From Aequorivita antarctica (GTDB lineage: Bacteria > Bacteroidota > Bacteroidia > Flavobacteriales > Flavobacteriaceae), in contig NZ_VORT01000001.1 in assembly GCF_007997155.1 (NCBI RefSeq), positions 372,001-436,000 of the forward strand: DNA of 64,000 nucleotides, given 5' to 3'. The position numbers and the translations under genes are program-made. This document shows positions 4,504 to 14,526 of the stretch, in pieces. The notes under the pieces are model-generated. The model did not search any database. It was not told the origin of the DNA and worked only from the letters and a program-made list of their open reading frames with translations. How positions within the stretch are numbered: the first letter of the stretch is position 1; each line of letters begins with the position of its first letter.

Positions 4504-6747
4504 TTACTCTTTTTTGTAACTGGTATAATATTCCTCCATCAAATTCATCAAAGCGGATACCAAATCTTTAGTTTCAAGCAAGAGGCTGAAATACAAGGTT
4601 GTGTTTTTCGGACTCGATTCTTCGGTTCGAGTTCGGGCTATTTGCTTTTCAATTTTGTTTGAAAGGCTTGCGAAGATTTCTTCTTTTTTATTGAGTACGT
4701 TTTTAATTCGTTGAAATTCCTTTTTATGGAAAATATCCTCAATTTCATTTAAGAGTTCTTCCAAATGTTGGTCTATTTCCTGCAAATCTTTTATTTGGTT
4801 GAAGCGAAGTGCTTTGTGATTGTTGTTCACGTGCTTGTAACTCGCTTTTGAAATAAACTCTAAAGACTGGACAACATCAGTCAAATATCCTAAAATCACA
4901 AGATAGAAATTGCTTCCTCGGACGCTGGTATCATCTAAATTTTTAATGAAATAGAAAATGTTGTCGCGTAGTTCTTCAACTTCATCATTCAGCTTATTTA
5001 CACCTTTTTTGCTCTTTTTAAGTTTTTTAGTGTCCTGCTTGGCTAGGCCGCGAAGCATATCGCTGTATATTTTGTTTGAACGTGAAACTACGTTACTAAT
5101 GTTTTCAGCACTTTCTTGAATGATTCCCTGAACTGTTTTACTTTCGTTTTTCTTTAAGCCGCTTTTATCCAGTTTCACTTTCACTTTGTTTTTATGCGAA
5201 AGATAGTTTCTTACTAATAAAAGAATGGCCAATAACAGCAATACAGCAATCATTGCACCTCTTCCTATAAAAATTAGATAGGTTAAGGTTCCTGCTGCAG
5301 CAAAAGCTACAAAAGCCGTAAAGAACCAACCACCGATAACGTTGAGTACGCCAGCGACCCTGTAAACTGCACTTTCACGGCCCCATGCTCTATCAGCCAA
5401 TGATGTACCCATTGCAACCATAAATGTTACATAGGTTGTAGATAGCGGTAATTTCATAGAAGTTGCAGTAGCAATCAATATCCCTGCAACCATAAGGTTT
5501 ATAGATGCACGGATCATATCAAAAGCAGGTAGCTCGTAGGTTTTGTGTTTTGTAAGGTTTACAACCGGCTTTTCAAAACGTTTGTCTATTTTCTCCTGAA
5601 GAGAAGCTGGAATGATATAACTAAAATAAGTGGACATTTGGGTGCTGGATTTTACAAAAAACCTAGAAAGCATATTTGGATTGAATTTTTCGTGGCCGTC
5701 ACCTTGTCGTGCTAAATCTATTTCGGTATCGGAAACCGTTCTTGCTTTTTTAGAAAACCAAAGGGTAAGAACCATAACACCGCCAGCAATAAAAAGCAAC
5801 AGAGGTTCTGCAGGAACTTTTTCCGCCAGGCTGTGCATACTGTATTCTGATGCGGCAACCCCAGACGCAGCCCAATCAATATAACTGTGATATGCGGCCA
5901 TAGGAACACCAATAAAGTTTACCAAATCATTTCCTGCAAAAGCCAAAGCAAGACTGAAGGTCCCTACAGCTATTACTATGATAAGGATGCTCTTTTTGAA
6001 AATCATCATAAAAAGTTGCGAGAAGATCGTCCACACAACGAAGCTTACACCTATTATTAACCAGGTTTCTGTTTCAATAATATCTTTAAAGTTTCCGTAA
6101 AAAGGAGTTCCTTTTAAACCTTTCATTAAAATAAAATAGCTTATTGATGTTAAAGCTACACCGCCAAAGATGGCGCCGAAATACTTCATTTTTTGTTCGG
6201 CGTGAAAAGTAAAAATAAGTCGCGAAATATATTGCACCACCATCCCGACTGAAAAAGCAACTCCTACAGAAATTACAATCCCAGAGATAATTTCTAAGGC
6301 TTTGTCGGTATTAATGTATTTGGAGAGTGCCGAAATTGATTCGGTATCAGAGTGGCCAATTTTTATTAAAGCCATAATAACAGCCGCACCCAAAAGTTCA
6401 AAAACAATGGAAACCGTTGTTGAGGTTGGCAAACCAATAGTGTTGAAGAAATCTAGCAACAAAATATCGGTAATCATTACTGCCATGAAAATGATCATGA
6501 TTTCATCAAAATAAAATTCGCCTGGGACGAAGATCCCCTTACGGGCAACTTCCATCATTCCGCTTGAGAAAACGGCCCCTATGAATATACCCAAACTGGC
6601 GATAATCAGTATGGTTCTAAAAGAGATGGCTTTTGAACCTATTGCAGAGTTCAGGAAATTTACGGCGTCATTGCTTACTCCTACCACAAGATCAGCTATG
6701 GCAAGCGCTGCAAGAGCAACAATCATTAATAAATAGATATTGTCCAT
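4504..6747 (-). CDS. PiT-family inorganic phosphate transporter with C-terminal PhoU/DUF47-like domain
   Basis: A low-affinity inner-membrane phosphate symporter. The 747-residue protein has two PHO4 repeats. The first carries VSNDAVNFLNSAIGSKAI at about 24-41 and GLPTSTTVSIVFELLGA at about 105-121. The second carries MKLPLSTTYVTFMVAMGTSL at about 425-444. After the last membrane segment (near 510) comes a soluble helical region of about 220 residues that resembles the PhoU/DUF47 partners of PiT transporters. Classical PiT proteins end after the membrane domain (about 500 aa), so transporter and regulator seem fused here. The gene is monocistronic, with a Pho-box-like repeat upstream, which suggests phosphate-responsive expression. 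Confidence 0.92.
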   Translation of the reverse strand: MDNIYLLMIVALAALAIADLVVGVSNDAVNFLNSAIGSKAISFRTILIIASLGIFIGAVFSSGMMEVARKGIFVPGEFYFDEIMIIFMAVMITDILLLDFFNTIGLPTSTTVSIVFELLGAAVIMALIKIGHSDTESISALSKYINTDKALEIISGIVISVGVAFSVGMVVQYISRLIFTFHAEQKMKYFGAIFGGVALTSISYFILMKGLKGTPFYGNFKDIIETETWLIIGVSFVVWTIFSQLFMMIFKKSILIIVIAVGTFSLALAFAGNDLVNFIGVPMAAYHSYIDWAASGVAASEYSMHSLAEKVPAEPLLLFIAGGVMVLTLWFSKKARTVSDTEIDLARQGDGHEKFNPNMLSRFFVKSSTQMSTYFSYIIPASLQEKIDKRFEKPVVNLTKHKTYELPAFDMIRASINLMVAGILIATATSMKLPLSTTYVTFMVAMGTSLADRAWGRESAVYRVAGVLNVIGGWFFTAFVAFAAAGTLTYLIFIGRGAMIAVLLLLAILLLVRNYLSHKNKVKVKLDKSGLKKNESKTVQGIIQESAENISNVVSRSNKIYSDMLRGLAKQDTKKLKKSKKGVNKLNDEVEELRDNIFYFIKNLDDTSVRGSNFYLVILGYLTDVVQSLEFISKASYKHVNNNHKALRFNQIKDLQEIDQHLEELLNEIEDIFHKKEFQRIKNVLNKKEEIFASLSNKIEKQIARTRTEESSPKNTTLYFSLLLETKDLVSALMNLMEEYYTSYKKE

Positions 6748-6773: not shown

Positions 6774-6818
6774 CAAAATTACTTTAAAATAGGGTTATCA
6801 ATGTTACGTAAATGTTAC
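6774..6818 (-). promoter_or_regulatory. PiT gene promoter with Pho-box-like direct repeats
   Basis: On the minus strand two perfect TAACATT half-sites begin exactly 11 bases apart (6811-6817 and 6800-6806). They are followed after 18 bases by TAATTTTG (6774-6781), a perfect TAnnTTTG -7 element. The 11-bp spacing is that expected for head-to-tail binding by a PhoB/PhoP-type regulator. The start codon is 26 bases further on. Confidence 0.7.
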
Positions 6819-11109: not shown

Positions 11110-11134
11110 TTTTTTTAGTTTAGTTTTTGCAGTA

Positions 11135-11178
11135 CAAAGAACCGATTTCTATGTTATGTGAATATTACTTGAAAGTGA
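11135..11178 (-). promoter_or_regulatory. pstS operon promoter with Pho-box-like direct repeats
   Basis: Minus-strand half-sites TCACTTT, TAATATT and TAACATA begin at 11-bp intervals (11172-11178, 11161-11167, 11150-11156). The middle one is exactly 18 bases upstream of GTTCTTTG (11135-11142), a partial TAnnTTTG -7 element. This is the same layout as at the PiT and porin promoters, with one extra repeat on the promoter side. Confidence 0.6.
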
Positions 11179-11227
11179 ACAAATTGCAATTAATACCTTT
11201 CTGAGCCTAAACTCACGAGGCTAAGTT

Positions 11228-12427
11228 TTAGAAATGGATATCCATTTGAAGACGGTACATCAAGTTGTCGTTTTCACCGCCAATTGTGGTATAGCTAATA
11301 TCAGTTTGCACCTTTAACTTATGGCCTACAATATATTTTGAAAGGCCAAGAGTGTATTGGTTTTCAACATCTTTACCAGTTATGTTTTGATCTAAATCAA
11401 TTGTTGTGTATCGTCCAGCAACTTCCCAATTTGATTTAAAAACATATCCGGCTTGGAGGTTTAAACCATTACCAACCTGAACCACATCGCCAGTTAAGGT
11501 TCCGTCAGAGTTTTTTGCTAAAGCATCCTCTGCGTCACGGTTGCTATACTCGGCCATAAGTGAAAAGCCTCTGTATTTGAACATTGCATCAACAAATAGG
11601 GTGGAAATATTAGTTTCGTAAAAACCTTCATCATTAGCCATATAGGAGCCTTGGTTGCTTCGGTTTTTAACCGCATTGTGGTTAAAATCATACGTGGCTC
11701 CCAATGCAAGTTTTGGAGTTTCTTCTCTTTGAAGATCGCCTCCAACATAATCGCCTTTACCGCTAAAATTTCCTAGGGGTAGAATTTCAAGGCGGCCAGT
11801 GTATTGATGACCTCCAAGATTGCCTGTAGTAACATTTCTGCCCTCACCTTGCGAAACTACTATCATTTCACGCATTATGAAACTTTCAGAAAAATCTGTA
11901 TGATGTCTTAATTGAAGTCCTAGATCTCGGTCTATATTAAATCTGCTATTTAACAAGGAACGATCTACAAATTGTAGATTGGCGGATGAAACAACCCGCT
12001 CTCTGTTTCCTGGTAATTTGGTCTGACCGACCCAGAGTTCAAAATTTTCGTAGAAATTCCACATCACAACCGCATCGAGAATATAGTTTGGCGAATCGCT
12101 TGTAAATGGTGAGGAACCGGCAATGTCTCTATTTGAAAGCCCTAGTTCAAGTTTATATTCAAGTTTTGGGGTATAGGCAAAACCACTGAATTTTAATCGA
12201 GCTCTTCGAACCAAGAAATTTGATTCAGCTTTTCCATATTGGTCGCCATCGTAATCCCATGATGTGGTTGAGAGAAATTGCATTCTGGCGGCCATATTCA
12301 TGGACCAAGTACTGTCTTTACCTACTATGTTTAGTATTCCCTTACCAAATCTCGGCCCTTCTATTTCTTGTGAAAAGGCACTAAAGGATAGAATTAGCAA
12401 TAAAGCTGTAATTAACTTAAGTTTCAT
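11228..12427 (-). CDS. Phosphate-selective porin (OprP/OprO family)
   Basis: An outer-membrane beta-barrel of 399 residues with a Sec signal peptide (cleavage probably at SAFS-Q) and alternating amphipathic strands to the last residue, ending in the aromatic barrel signature MYRLQMDIHF. The N-terminal SWDYDGDQYGKAESNFLVRRARLKFSG region (about 55-81, quoted in pieces: FLVRRARLKFSG) is typical of the OprP/O family. Placed upstream of pstS on the same strand, with its own repeat-containing promoter, it should supply phosphate or polyphosphate to the Pst system. The leader of its message is nearly complementary to a candidate RNA just upstream. Confidence 0.9.
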   Translation of the reverse strand: MKLKLITALLLILSFSAFSQEIEGPRFGKGILNIVGKDSTWSMNMAARMQFLSTTSWDYDGDQYGKAESNFLVRRARLKFSGFAYTPKLEYKLELGLSNRDIAGSSPFTSDSPNYILDAVVMWNFYENFELWVGQTKLPGNRERVVSSANLQFVDRSLLNSRFNIDRDLGLQLRHHTDFSESFIMREMIVVSQGEGRNVTTGNLGGHQYTGRLEILPLGNFSGKGDYVGGDLQREETPKLALGATYDFNHNAVKNRSNQGSYMANDEGFYETNISTLFVDAMFKYRGFSLMAEYSNRDAEDALAKNSDGTLTGDVVQVGNGLNLQAGYVFKSNWEVAGRYTTIDLDQNITGKDVENQYTLGLSKYIVGHKLKVQTDISYTTIGGENDNLMYRLQMDIHF

Positions 12428-12454
12428 TTAAATCGTTTTTAGTTTTTGTCACTG

Positions 12455-12498
12455 CAAAGGACTGACTATAAAATATTTTGAATGTTTCTTTAATGTTA
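12455..12498 (-). promoter_or_regulatory. Porin promoter with Pho-box-like direct repeats
   Basis: Minus-strand TAACATT (12492-12498) and AAACATT (12481-12487) begin 11 bases apart, then an 18-base spacer leads to GTCCTTTG (12455-12462) as the -7 element. The start codon follows 27 bases later. Confidence 0.65.
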
Positions 12499-12520
12499 AG
12501 TTACTTTACTAATATTGGTG

Positions 12521-12561
12521 CAAAAAACAAAAGAAAAGGGCTGCTCAATTAAGAACAGCCC
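12521..12561 (-). terminator. Intrinsic terminator with no coding gene in front of it
   Basis: Minus strand: GGGCTG-TTC / GAG-CAGCCC stem (9 bp with one G-U) and TTAATT loop, followed by TTTTCTTTTGTTTTTTG. Leftward transcription ending here would come from the gene-free stretch above, because the next leftward gene (13258-14526) has its own terminator. This is one reason for proposing a small RNA. Confidence 0.65.
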
Positions 12562-12618
12562 AGTTTTAAAATCTAGTCGACAAAAACTAAACGATTTTAA
12601 ATATTGCCTATTTAAAGA
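12525..12618 (-). ncRNA. Candidate Pho-controlled small RNA antisense to the porin leader
   Basis: A gene-free stretch with a promoter-like element upstream and a clear terminator downstream, giving an RNA of about 90-95 nt. The segment 12579-12602 is complementary to the porin message leader 12426-12450 over 23 base pairs with two small bulges, reaching into the porin start codon. The 12 nt at 12581-12592 are also perfectly complementary to the pstS leader (11118-11129). The rest of the RNA is the terminator hairpin. Caution: flavobacterial leaders are A-rich and similar to each other, so T-rich RNA pairs with them rather easily. Existence and ends are inferred, with no transcript evidence. 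Confidence 0.4.
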
Positions 12619-12624
12619 CAATTA

Positions 12625-12668
12625 CAAAGGAAATTAATCTGTGATTATTTTATGTGAATTTAGTTTTA
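12625..12668 (-). promoter_or_regulatory. Possible Pho-type promoter of the candidate small RNA
   Basis: TTCCTTTG (12625-12632) as -7 element, an 18-base spacer, then half-sites TCACATA (12651-12657) and TAAAACT (12662-12668) at 11-bp spacing, each 5 of 7 to TAACATT. The geometry is identical to the porin promoter, but the half-sites are weaker and the DNA is very AT-rich. Confidence 0.4.
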
Positions 12669-12779
12669 TCAAATCATTAAGTTATTATTTTTATAAATTT
12701 ATTAATAATTAAATAATTAGAAATCAGATAGTTGCAGGTTTAGTGTTACTAAAACGTTATGTAATCGTTTCTTAAAGGT

Positions 12780-12795
12780 TAATTTTGTAAATTTG
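12780..12795 (+). promoter_or_regulatory. Two overlapping-type -7 elements upstream of the MORN-like gene
   Basis: TAATTTTG (12780-12787) and TAAATTTG (12788-12795) both match TAnnTTTG perfectly, 29 and 37 bases before the ATG at 12825. Either could be the promoter of that gene. Confidence 0.45.
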
Positions 12796-12824
12796 AATAT
12801 TCAGAATATTTAAAAGCCTTACAA

Positions 12825-13184
12825 ATGAAAAATATAATCACAATTTTAGCAATCGCATTATTCACTTCAGTTTCCTTTTCACAGGATACTAAGAAAAACA
12901 CATACTTCTTGGATGGTGATGTTATTGAAGCAACAATCTATCACGATAATGGAATGATTGCACAAACAGGATATTACTCTAAGGAGAACAAGCTTACTGG
13001 AGAATGGGTGAGTTATGATCTAAAAGGAGAAAAAACTGCCGTTGCACAATACAATAATGGAGAAAAAGTTGGCACTTGGTATTTCTTTACGGATAAAAAT
13101 ATTAAAGAGGTAAGCTATATGGATGCTCGTGTTGCCAAGGTTGTTACTTGGAAATCTTCCGACACTCAAATTGTTGTAAATTAA
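12825..13184 (+). CDS. Secreted MORN-repeat-like (YwqK-type) protein
   Basis: A small exported protein of 119 residues with a signal peptide (cleavage near VSFS-Q). The body has repeated units of the form YHDNGMIAQTGYYSKENKLTGEW and YNNGEKVGTWYFF, which resemble MORN/YwqK repeats: short beta-hairpins with G-W/Y endings. Flavobacteria carry many such proteins with unknown roles. It is a single gene read away from the phosphate cluster and ends at the 13203-13236 terminator. Two perfect -7 elements precede it. The fold is likely; function is unknown. Confidence 0.75.
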   Translation: MKNIITILAIALFTSVSFSQDTKKNTYFLDGDVIEATIYHDNGMIAQTGYYSKENKLTGEWVSYDLKGEKTAVAQYNNGEKVGTWYFFTDKNIKEVSYMDARVAKVVTWKSSDTQIVVN

Positions 13185-13202
13185 GAATAAAGATTAATAT
13201 GT

Positions 13203-13236
13203 AAAAACCCCGGTTTCAATTGAAAGCGGGGTTTTT
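13203..13236. terminator. Bidirectional intrinsic terminator
   Basis: AAAAACCCCG / CGGGGTTTTT with an inner self-complementary TTTCAATTGAAA. It lies between the convergent genes ending at 13184 and 13258. Confidence 0.9.
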
Positions 13237-13257
13237 GTTTTTTGCTAATTCAATACT

Positions 13258-14526
13258 TTATTCAAAAACGTAGCCAGTCCAGTTGAACAAATCTCTGCTC
13301 ACTGTTGGAAGGGTTCCATCTGTTACATTTATAGTTGCTCCAGCAGTTGTCTTGATGTCTGTAATATCAAGACCTGTTGAAGAATCTCCCATTACAGAAA
13401 GATTAACTGAAGAGCCTTTTGCATCTCCTTTAGAGTCTGTTAAATCGATGAAATCTGCTGCTTTTGCATTTGCATTTGCAAAGGCTACGTATGCATTGGT
13501 TAGTGTAAGACCACTACCTCTTCGCACTTTAATCATATCAGCCATTTCAATTGCTGCTCCATTTATTAAAACCAAACCATTAATAGTTGGGTTTGATTGT
13601 CCAGTATCACCAGGAGAATTTCCGTCAAGGTTTCCATCGCCTTCCAATCCACGTGGATCTTCAGTAATTGATGTGAAATTGGCTTCACGCAAACCATAAA
13701 GATTGGTTGCAGTTCCTGTCCATCCTTGGGTCCAGTCAAACAAATCGTCTTTTGCGTTTACTGCTATTGCATTTGTAACGTTTACTGTTCCGCCGAAAAA
13801 TTCATAGGCATCATCATCTCCATAAAATACAGCTACGTTTTCAATTACTGTTTCATTTCCTACTGCATAGAAAGTGATTCCGTTGAATTCTTTATCACCG
13901 TTAATACGAGCTCCAGTATATGAAGCTTCCACATATTTCATAACTCCAGAATTATCGTTAGCTACAGTTCCACCGTAAGTTAAATCAACAACTTCAGTAG
14001 TTGCAGTTCCACCACCACTAATTGGTGCTTTCCCTATTAAAAGAATACCACCCCAATCCCCAGAACGTGGATTTGAAGCATTAGATGTAAATTTAATTGG
14101 AGCAGCAGCAGTTCCAGCAGCGTTAATTTTGGCGCCTTGCTCAATGGCTACATAAACATTGGTTCCGCCGGCAACAGCTTTAATAGTTGTTCCTGGCTCT
14201 ACACAAAGTGTTGCGCCAGCCTTAACACTTAAAGGGCCAGTAAGAATCCACACGGTGTCATTGGTAAGACAAACATCTGCGGTAACATTACCTTTAAGAT
14301 CCAAAGGATCTAAATCTGGATCATCTTGAGATGCTATTATACCGTCCTTTTCAGCTTGTACTGCGCAAGGCTCGCAGGCAGAACCGCCACAATCGATACC
14401 GGTTTCATCGCCGTTTTGAACTCCATCATTACAAGTAGCGGCCACAGGTGTGGGGCTATCGTCTTTACTACAGCCAGTAAGGGCTAATGTTGCGATTACA
14501 AAGCTTGATAAAAGAAATTTTTTCAT
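13258..14526 (-). CDS. Right-handed beta-helix-like lipoprotein, probable Pho-regulon member
   Basis: The start at ATG 14526 gives a 422-residue lipoprotein: MKKFLLSSFVIATLALTGC with the lipobox Cys near 19. The longer frame from 14565 has no signal peptide at its beginning. A short Cys-rich segment follows (CNDGVQNGDETGIDCGG, then CEPC). The rest is Gly/Ala/Asn/Thr-rich with strand-turn repeats such as AVFYGDDDAYEFFGGTVNVT and AVNAKDDLFDWTQGW, suggesting a parallel beta-helix. It lies directly downstream of a large TonB receptor gene but has its own promoter with Pho-like repeats. That suggests a surface partner of the receptor that binds a phosphate-containing substrate; ligand unknown. Confidence 0.75.
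   Translation of the reverse strand: MKKFLLSSFVIATLALTGCSKDDSPTPVAATCNDGVQNGDETGIDCGGSACEPCAVQAEKDGIIASQDDPDLDPLDLKGNVTADVCLTNDTVWILTGPLSVKAGATLCVEPGTTIKAVAGGTNVYVAIEQGAKINAAGTAAAPIKFTSNASNPRSGDWGGILLIGKAPISGGGTATTEVVDLTYGGTVANDNSGVMKYVEASYTGARINGDKEFNGITFYAVGNETVIENVAVFYGDDDAYEFFGGTVNVTNAIAVNAKDDLFDWTQGWTGTATNLYGLREANFTSITEDPRGLEGDGNLDGNSPGDTGQSNPTINGLVLINGAAIEMADMIKVRRGSGLTLTNAYVAFANANAKAADFIDLTDSKGDAKGSSVNLSVMGDSSTGLDITDIKTTAGATINVTDGTLPTVSRDLFNWTGYVFE

Follow-up and report, generated by a model that had tools for sequence, protein, structure and literature searches.

A predicted, conserved small RNA of Flavobacteriaceae with complementarity to the leader of the adjacent porin gene

In gammaproteobacteria, porins are repressed by small RNAs (sRNAs) such as MicF, MicA, MicC, and RybB. 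In the Bacteroidetes, the cis-antisense RNAs of Bacteroides polysaccharide loci overlap their targets on the opposite strand. To our knowledge, base-pairing sRNAs are few in this phylum, and the rules by which they would pair without Hfq and without a Shine-Dalgarno sequence are largely open. For VrrA, which targets the 5' region of the mRNA for an outer-membrane protein, Hfq is reported not to be stringently required (PMC2628432). Within the Flavobacteriaceae, Rfp18 of Flavobacterium psychrophilum is reported to be a structured sRNA, conserved in its genus, that targets metalloproteases and a predicted adhesin and pairs by its third stem-loop; the word "porin" is absent from the main text of that study (PMC9723704). 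A link to phosphate uptake is reported for the archaeal sRNA132 of Haloferax, which has a positive role, is tied to phosphate starvation and to a phosphate transporter operon, with which it accumulates at low phosphate, and has a regulon of about 40 genes (PMC6560208).

The locus described here lies in a 64,000-nucleotide stretch of the Aequorivita antarctica genome, referred to as the window. Like sRNAs of the MicF type or the VrrA type (the latter in PMC2628432), its predicted sRNA would pair with an outer-membrane protein mRNA in its 5' region and stop translation. It differs from them in that its gene directly precedes that of its target in the same orientation, that it has a nearly single site and belongs to a different phylum, and that it would be under Pho-type rather than envelope-stress control. 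The likeness to enterobacterial porin sRNAs drawn in a preliminary description of this DNA holds, at the level of sequence, for the pairing with the porin initiation region and for the RNA's own promoter and terminator; it does not extend to Hfq, for which the profile PF17209 found no match in the A. antarctica genome (the same profile matches 5 of 14 control genomes), or to a gene encoded away from its target, the two being adjacent in 103 of 108 genomes. With Rfp18, this RNA shares its structured character and its family, and it is set apart from Rfp18, as reported, by its predicted pairing through the middle hairpin (PMC9723704). With Haloferax sRNA132 it shares the link to phosphate uptake, whereas sRNA132 is archaeal and is reported to be positive and broad in its regulon (PMC6560208). 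It resembles the Bacteroides cis-antisense RNAs as a Bacteroidetes RNA that would act by complementarity, yet it does not overlap its target. Among open-licence papers in PMC, preprints excluded, we found nothing on this sRNA.

A predicted sRNA gene upstream of the porin gene

The target gene encodes a 399-aa Porin_O_P protein (minus strand, 11228 to 12427; PF07396, E = 4.2e-15) and is separated from a divergent 119-aa gene by 397 bases (12428 to 12824). As the preliminary description had noted, this gap holds no gene; an ORF scan found no frame of at least 80 aa in it. The divergent neighbor (12825 to 13184) encodes a MORN-like secreted protein; in 20 of the 30 loci L030 to L059, the element has a relative of this protein as a neighbor.

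We consider it likely, taking repression and Pho co-control together with its transcription, that the gap holds a conserved, dedicated base-pairing sRNA of the Flavobacteriaceae. The predicted RNA is about 89 nt long (minus strand, 12530 to 12618) and is covered by a covariance-model match at 12529 to 12629 (E = 6.7e-17). Its 5' end was placed about 7 nt after the TTTG of a −7-like promoter element, TTCCTTTG (minus strand, 12625 to 12632, aligned with the TTTG of relatives), and its 3' end was taken from the intrinsic terminator, SL3 (minus strand, 12538 to 12561), which has nine pairs, six of them GC, followed by TTTTCTTT. The strong minus-strand terminator claimed earlier is therefore present, and it is the sole terminator-like site detected within 12000 to 13500. 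At the level of sequence, the layout is that of a small unit with its own promoter and terminator. It lies on the porin's own strand, immediately upstream and without overlap, and so the label "antisense" given to it in the preliminary description does not apply in its usual sense.

The stretch from 12622 to 12530 is predicted to form three hairpins (−31.0 kcal/mol; fold z score −6.1, with −2.4 to −5.8 for the sRNAs of seven relatives). The 5' stem-loop SL1 (minus strand, 12603 to 12622) appears in both the MFE and the centroid fold of 12530 to 12622, and another fold is predicted for this region if the RNA begins at 12618. The middle stem-loop SL2 (minus strand, 12565 to 12601) contains the pairing segment, and its AGTTTTTGTC is invariant in 32 of 32 aligned sRNAs. 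The conserved core in its loop, AGUUUUUGUC (minus strand, 12579 to 12588), is complementary to GACAAAAACU of the porin leader, as judged by alignment and pair scoring. Across 101 intervals (the window and 100 relatives with the same adjacency), at least eight pairs enclosed the loop in 72 of 101 MFE folds (minimum, 0) versus 34 of 101 with shuffled flanks, so that by single-sequence folding the SL2 hairpin is a tendency.

A peptide encoded by the sRNA was considered and rejected, since 65 of the 101 intervals lack a complete ATG-initiated frame and the remainder show no constant frame length. With Rfam 15, no family exceeded its curated threshold for the sRNA (best score, 24.2 bits against a threshold of 45), and the sole match in the window was a tRNA elsewhere.

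Pairing with the porin leader and its covariation

The preliminary description had proposed a 23-bp pairing between the sRNA and the porin leader that runs into the AUG. Duplex prediction bears this out: sRNA positions 12579 to 12602 and the minus-strand leader segment 12426 to 12450, which ends in the AUG, form 23 pairs with one 2-nt and one 1-nt bulge, at a predicted energy of about −24.6 to −24.7 kcal/mol. When the 89-nt sRNA was cofolded with the leader, the middle hairpin opened onto the leader while the terminator remained folded. The comparison with other leaders that had been suggested earlier was run on 356 predicted leaders from 464 kb of this genome (the window and another 400 kb). 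The porin leader ranked first by duplex energy, none of the other 355 equaling it (mean of the leaders, −8.7 kcal/mol; standard deviation, 2.9), and first again by net cofold energy (−15.1 kcal/mol). When the 5' 57 nt of the sRNA were shuffled 5,000 times, no version equaled the real sequence in pairing with the porin leader, the best reaching −19.5 kcal/mol.

The pairing is thus strongly supported by sequence, and that the two segments can pair as such is close to certain. Some complementarity is expected by chance or simply because leaders are rich in A and promoters contain repeats, as the mean over the 356 leaders illustrates; given the first rank, the absence of any equal among the shuffles, and the conservation and compensatory changes in 122 sRNA-leader pairs described below, we assign this explanation hardly any probability, in agreement with the earlier claim that the complementarity exceeds chance.

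The motif GACAAA[AG]A precedes the porin in all 101 intervals, a median of 20.5 nt ahead of the AUG, and in 99 of them it begins 4 to 5 nt after TTTG, which would put the site roughly where the porin mRNA begins. Of the 100 intervals with an ATG start, 96 have a predicted duplex that touches the AUG.

Compensatory changes across relatives had been set beforehand as decisive. We therefore compared 122 sRNA-leader pairs, comprising the 101 intervals, 17 further pairs, and 4 distant ones. Core positions 1 to 8 were paired in all 122 (two by wobble) and position 9 in 119 (11 by wobble); the sites were located by their core motifs, so that pairing of the core is partly by construction, and the flank positions serve as the test. 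At flank positions 10 to 13, two-sided Watson-Crick changes were found, the kept pair types being A-U, G-C, and U-A at position 10, U-A, A-U, and C-G at position 11, U-A and A-U at position 12, and A-U, U-A, and C-G at position 13. Examples are TAC/GTA in genome G123 and ATC/GAT in G384, with others in G062, G080, and G252 and in a group with TTA/TAA. Mispairs at positions 10 to 13 numbered 6, 7, 14 to 15, and 26 to 27 of 122, respectively. Complementarity to the porin initiation region has thus been kept by compensatory change.

Watson-Crick matches at positions 10 to 14 averaged 4.13 versus 3.64 ± 0.05 after shuffling (maximum, 3.84; 0 of 5,000), and own pairs had a mean energy of −25.2 kcal/mol versus −22.0 ± 0.24 kcal/mol when leaders were swapped (0 of 2,000 permutations). 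For a given sRNA the own leader had a median rank of 18 of 101, meaning that leaders of relatives often fit about equally well. Both permutation tests ignore phylogeny, and the several distinct types of compensatory pair are the better argument. In genome G171 (locus L407), the core lies about 144 nt before the porin match, and the sRNA and the promoter and leader of the porin are perfect inverted copies of each other over some 34 nt, the promoter TTTG included, as if one arm had been copied from the other.

Distribution, exchange of the porin, and other targets

A blastn search with a 144-nt query found matches in 48 of 397 Flavobacteriaceae genomes, mostly to one block of about 30 nt, which is followed by a terminator in most of the loci that carry it. 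In the alignment of 32 sRNAs, 11 columns are invariant, namely AGTTTTTGTC and one T. No part of the sRNA is more conserved than the complementary block, and the loss of this block beside a conserved leader, named earlier as an observation that would speak against the proposal, is not what the alignment shows. Two-sided changes occur at each of the terminator's nine consensus pairs. In SL2, the four apical pairs are nearly invariant and hence little informative.

The covariance model R1 matched 249 of the 397 genomes at E ≤ 0.01, where weak matches may be plain terminators; the best 150 matches (E ≤ 5e-7) fall in 149 genomes, and Aequorivita, Algibacter, Lacinutrix, Olleya, Tamlana, and Flavivirga are among the carriers in the matches listed. 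In a sample of the class, 4 of 295 genomes passed 1e-4, these being A. antarctica and three others. Spread outside the family was not supported, since these three matches (L463 to L465) have no loop motif and resemble plain terminators. The motif is likewise absent from two extra matches in A. antarctica itself (contigs C54 and C43; L461 and L462). In genome G190 the sRNA is present twice (L128), and the extra copy, some 117 kb away from the one at the porin, comes with a GACAAAAACTAATAC leader of its own; because the frames listed after this leader do not match the porin, the extra copy may be a decayed duplicate.

When the sRNA matches were combined with the best 150 of 211 porin genomes, 108 genomes were listed for both, and in 103 of these the sRNA lies just upstream of the porin, 69 to 172 nt away on the same strand, an arrangement distinct from the opposite-strand overlap of cis-antisense RNAs. 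In the remaining five, the two are 2.8 to 3.2 kb apart (four genomes) or on separate contigs (one). Such close spacing on one strand would also fit a process in cis, raised in the preliminary description, in which transcripts from the upstream promoter read through and fold into a hairpin hiding the porin start, no free sRNA being of consequence. The conserved terminator stem, changed on both sides at every consensus pair, argues against read-through, and so do the four genomes with distant copies, in which the sRNA is followed by two opposite-direction frames (the locus ends within the second) and the porin leaders nevertheless retain GACAAAAACTA. These four loci indicate that the sRNA is best read as a separate unit rather than an extension of the leader, and we regard read-through as highly improbable. 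In loci L033, L036, L038, and L057, the intervening frames presumably encode, from their sequences, a carbonic anhydrase and a sulfate-permease-like transporter.

The sRNA and the leader site also tend to be lost together. Among 42 porin genomes outside the listed sRNA matches, 17 have both core and site, 21 have neither, 3 have the site only, and 1 has the core only (Fisher P = 9e-8). Genomes G340, G444, and G386 have the site with no sRNA core within about 4 kb upstream; in the sole core-only genome, the core match at −521 looks unrelated.

Conversely, the unit can be kept while the porin is exchanged. Within Aequorivita, R1 matches 25 of 28 genomes and the porin query 15 of 28. Ten genomes have the sRNA but not this porin, and in these the sRNA is followed by a different frame of 404 to 440 aa; the two of these frames that were tested both encode Porin_O_P proteins, one of them 24% identical to the porin of the window. 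Nine of the ten retain GACAAAAACT directly after TTTG or TTTA, and G021 has the sRNA but has lost the leader site. Outside the genus, eight genomes that have the sRNA without this porin were read, and the site is present in four of the eight. It stands before a third Porin_O_P type in G356 and G120 (E = 1e-33 and 2e-29), before a frame similar to that type in G159, and, in G096, beside pstS, before a 335-aa protein whose barrel matches lie below curated cut-offs. A search-string scan of the fetched stretch gave no site in G156, G064, G200, or G210; the core of G200 itself differs, and its complement is invisible to the string used.

Retention of the unit across such exchanges would fit control that is attached to the porin slot and not to one porin. 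We give roughly even chances to the reading that a portable cassette, consisting of an Hfq-independent sRNA and a leader under one starvation regulator, is kept while the outer-membrane protein behind it is exchanged. The same balance applies to this reading as a whole, in which the unit would be kept across much of the Flavobacteriaceae and would act as an incoherent feed-forward limiter of outer-membrane permeability.

The four sRNA genomes without this porin in which no site was seen could also mean that the porin leader is a sponge that titrates the sRNA, with the important targets elsewhere. Weak sites do exist in A. antarctica. The pstS leader contains CAAAAACTAAAC (minus strand, 11118 to 11129), a 12/12 match to the sRNA as noted in the preliminary description, and ranks 9th of 356 by duplex and 5th of 356 by net cofold energy, making it a weaker target than the porin. 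As a second conserved target, pstS had to be dropped: CAAAAACTA is present in four of nine pstS leaders, two of which come from one and the same contig, leaving three of eight distinct genomes, all of this genus; it is a weak, genus-limited target. The second-best duplex (rank 2 of 356) is formed with the leader GACAAAGACTAAATG of a gene at 11157 to 11609 of locus L405, which we take from its sequence to be rplM-like. This leader was rejected as a third target, as its 15-mer occurs in 8 of 28 genomes of the genus.

The exact 12-mer GACAAAAACTAA occurs four times in the A. antarctica genome: in the porin leader, in the complement of the sRNA, in an open frame, and elsewhere, neither of the last two copies standing directly ahead of a gene start in the sequence read. 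In 32 chosen genomes the 13-mer has 82 copies, of which, by our tally, 56 fall in an sRNA or in the leader next to it. The remaining 26 stand against 31 copies of the reversed pattern, so that no further target is visible at this stringency. Together with the limited spread of the pstS and rplM-like sites and the absence of the site from 21 of the 24 porins without an sRNA core, this makes a sponge quite improbable, and the porin mRNA is the favored target.

Promoters and the direction of regulation

Both promoters contain direct repeats resembling Pho boxes. Upstream of the sRNA, TTAAN occurs twice with 11-bp spacing in 82 of 100 intervals (shuffles, 2.9; maximum, 8), and in porin promoters [AT]AACA occurs twice with the same spacing in 79 of 101. 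In A. antarctica, the TTAA-type half-sites before the sRNA (minus strand, 12633 to 12690), located from the repeats of relatives, are weak. The porin promoter has the −7-like element TCCTTTG (minus strand, 12455 to 12461, at the TTTG position of relatives) and an exact Pho-box-like direct repeat, TAACATTAAAGAAACAT (minus strand, 12482 to 12498). Another exact repeat, with one mismatch to a longer pattern, precedes the gene for a Pit-type transporter (4504 to 6747) at 6801 to 6817 on the minus strand. These two are the only exact copies in the window, where 0.13 would be expected. A pattern scan found a repeat with one mismatch before pstS (minus strand, 11151 to 11167), but the window holds five one-mismatch copies against 5.3 expected, and the count alone is no evidence for this one. 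Over the whole genome, the longer pattern gave three near-matches, including those of the porin and the Pit gene, and the reversed control likewise gave three. Given the genes that follow the repeat, we infer that it may be a PhoB site and that the sRNA and porin would both be under Pho control. The Pho-type promoter proposed in the preliminary description is thus favored by the repeats at both promoters and by the exact box at the porin and Pit genes; at the sRNA of A. antarctica itself the repeats are faint.

On this basis, a dedicated base-pairing sRNA that occludes the porin start codon and is controlled together with the porin by a Pho-like regulator is, in our judgment, the probable explanation. 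Transcription of the sRNA would start at a Bacteroidetes-type promoter of its own, whose 11-bp direct repeats resemble those of the porin promoter, and would end at its own terminator. The SL2 loop AGUUUUUGUC would nucleate on GACAAAAACU at the presumed 5' end of the porin mRNA, and the duplex would then zip through the 5' arm of SL2 until the AUG is covered, blocking initiation without an obvious need for Hfq. With one Pho-type regulator apparently acting on both genes, the result would be an incoherent feed-forward loop by which porin synthesis is capped or timed during phosphate starvation. Plausible purposes would be to cap a large pore or to delay the porin relative to the Pst system.

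The direction of regulation is the weakest step, as repressing a phosphate porin under phosphate scarcity is counter-intuitive. The sRNA might instead act positively, by binding the porin mRNA at its 5' end and so stabilizing the message or speeding its induction. The start of the pairing at the presumed mRNA 5' end and co-induction by one regulator would fit such a role, and Haloferax sRNA132 is reported to act positively on a phosphate ABC transporter operon (PMC6560208). With a predicted duplex that reaches the AUG in 96 of 100 pairs, we consider positive regulation unlikely, and the sRNA would probably switch porin production down.

The mechanism can be tested directly at this locus, where target, pairing register, and a large number of naturally occurring compensatory variants are already at hand. 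The proposed sRNA would place a layer of RNA control on phosphate uptake in marine bacteria, and it would be an example of a regulator tied to a genomic slot instead of to a single protein.
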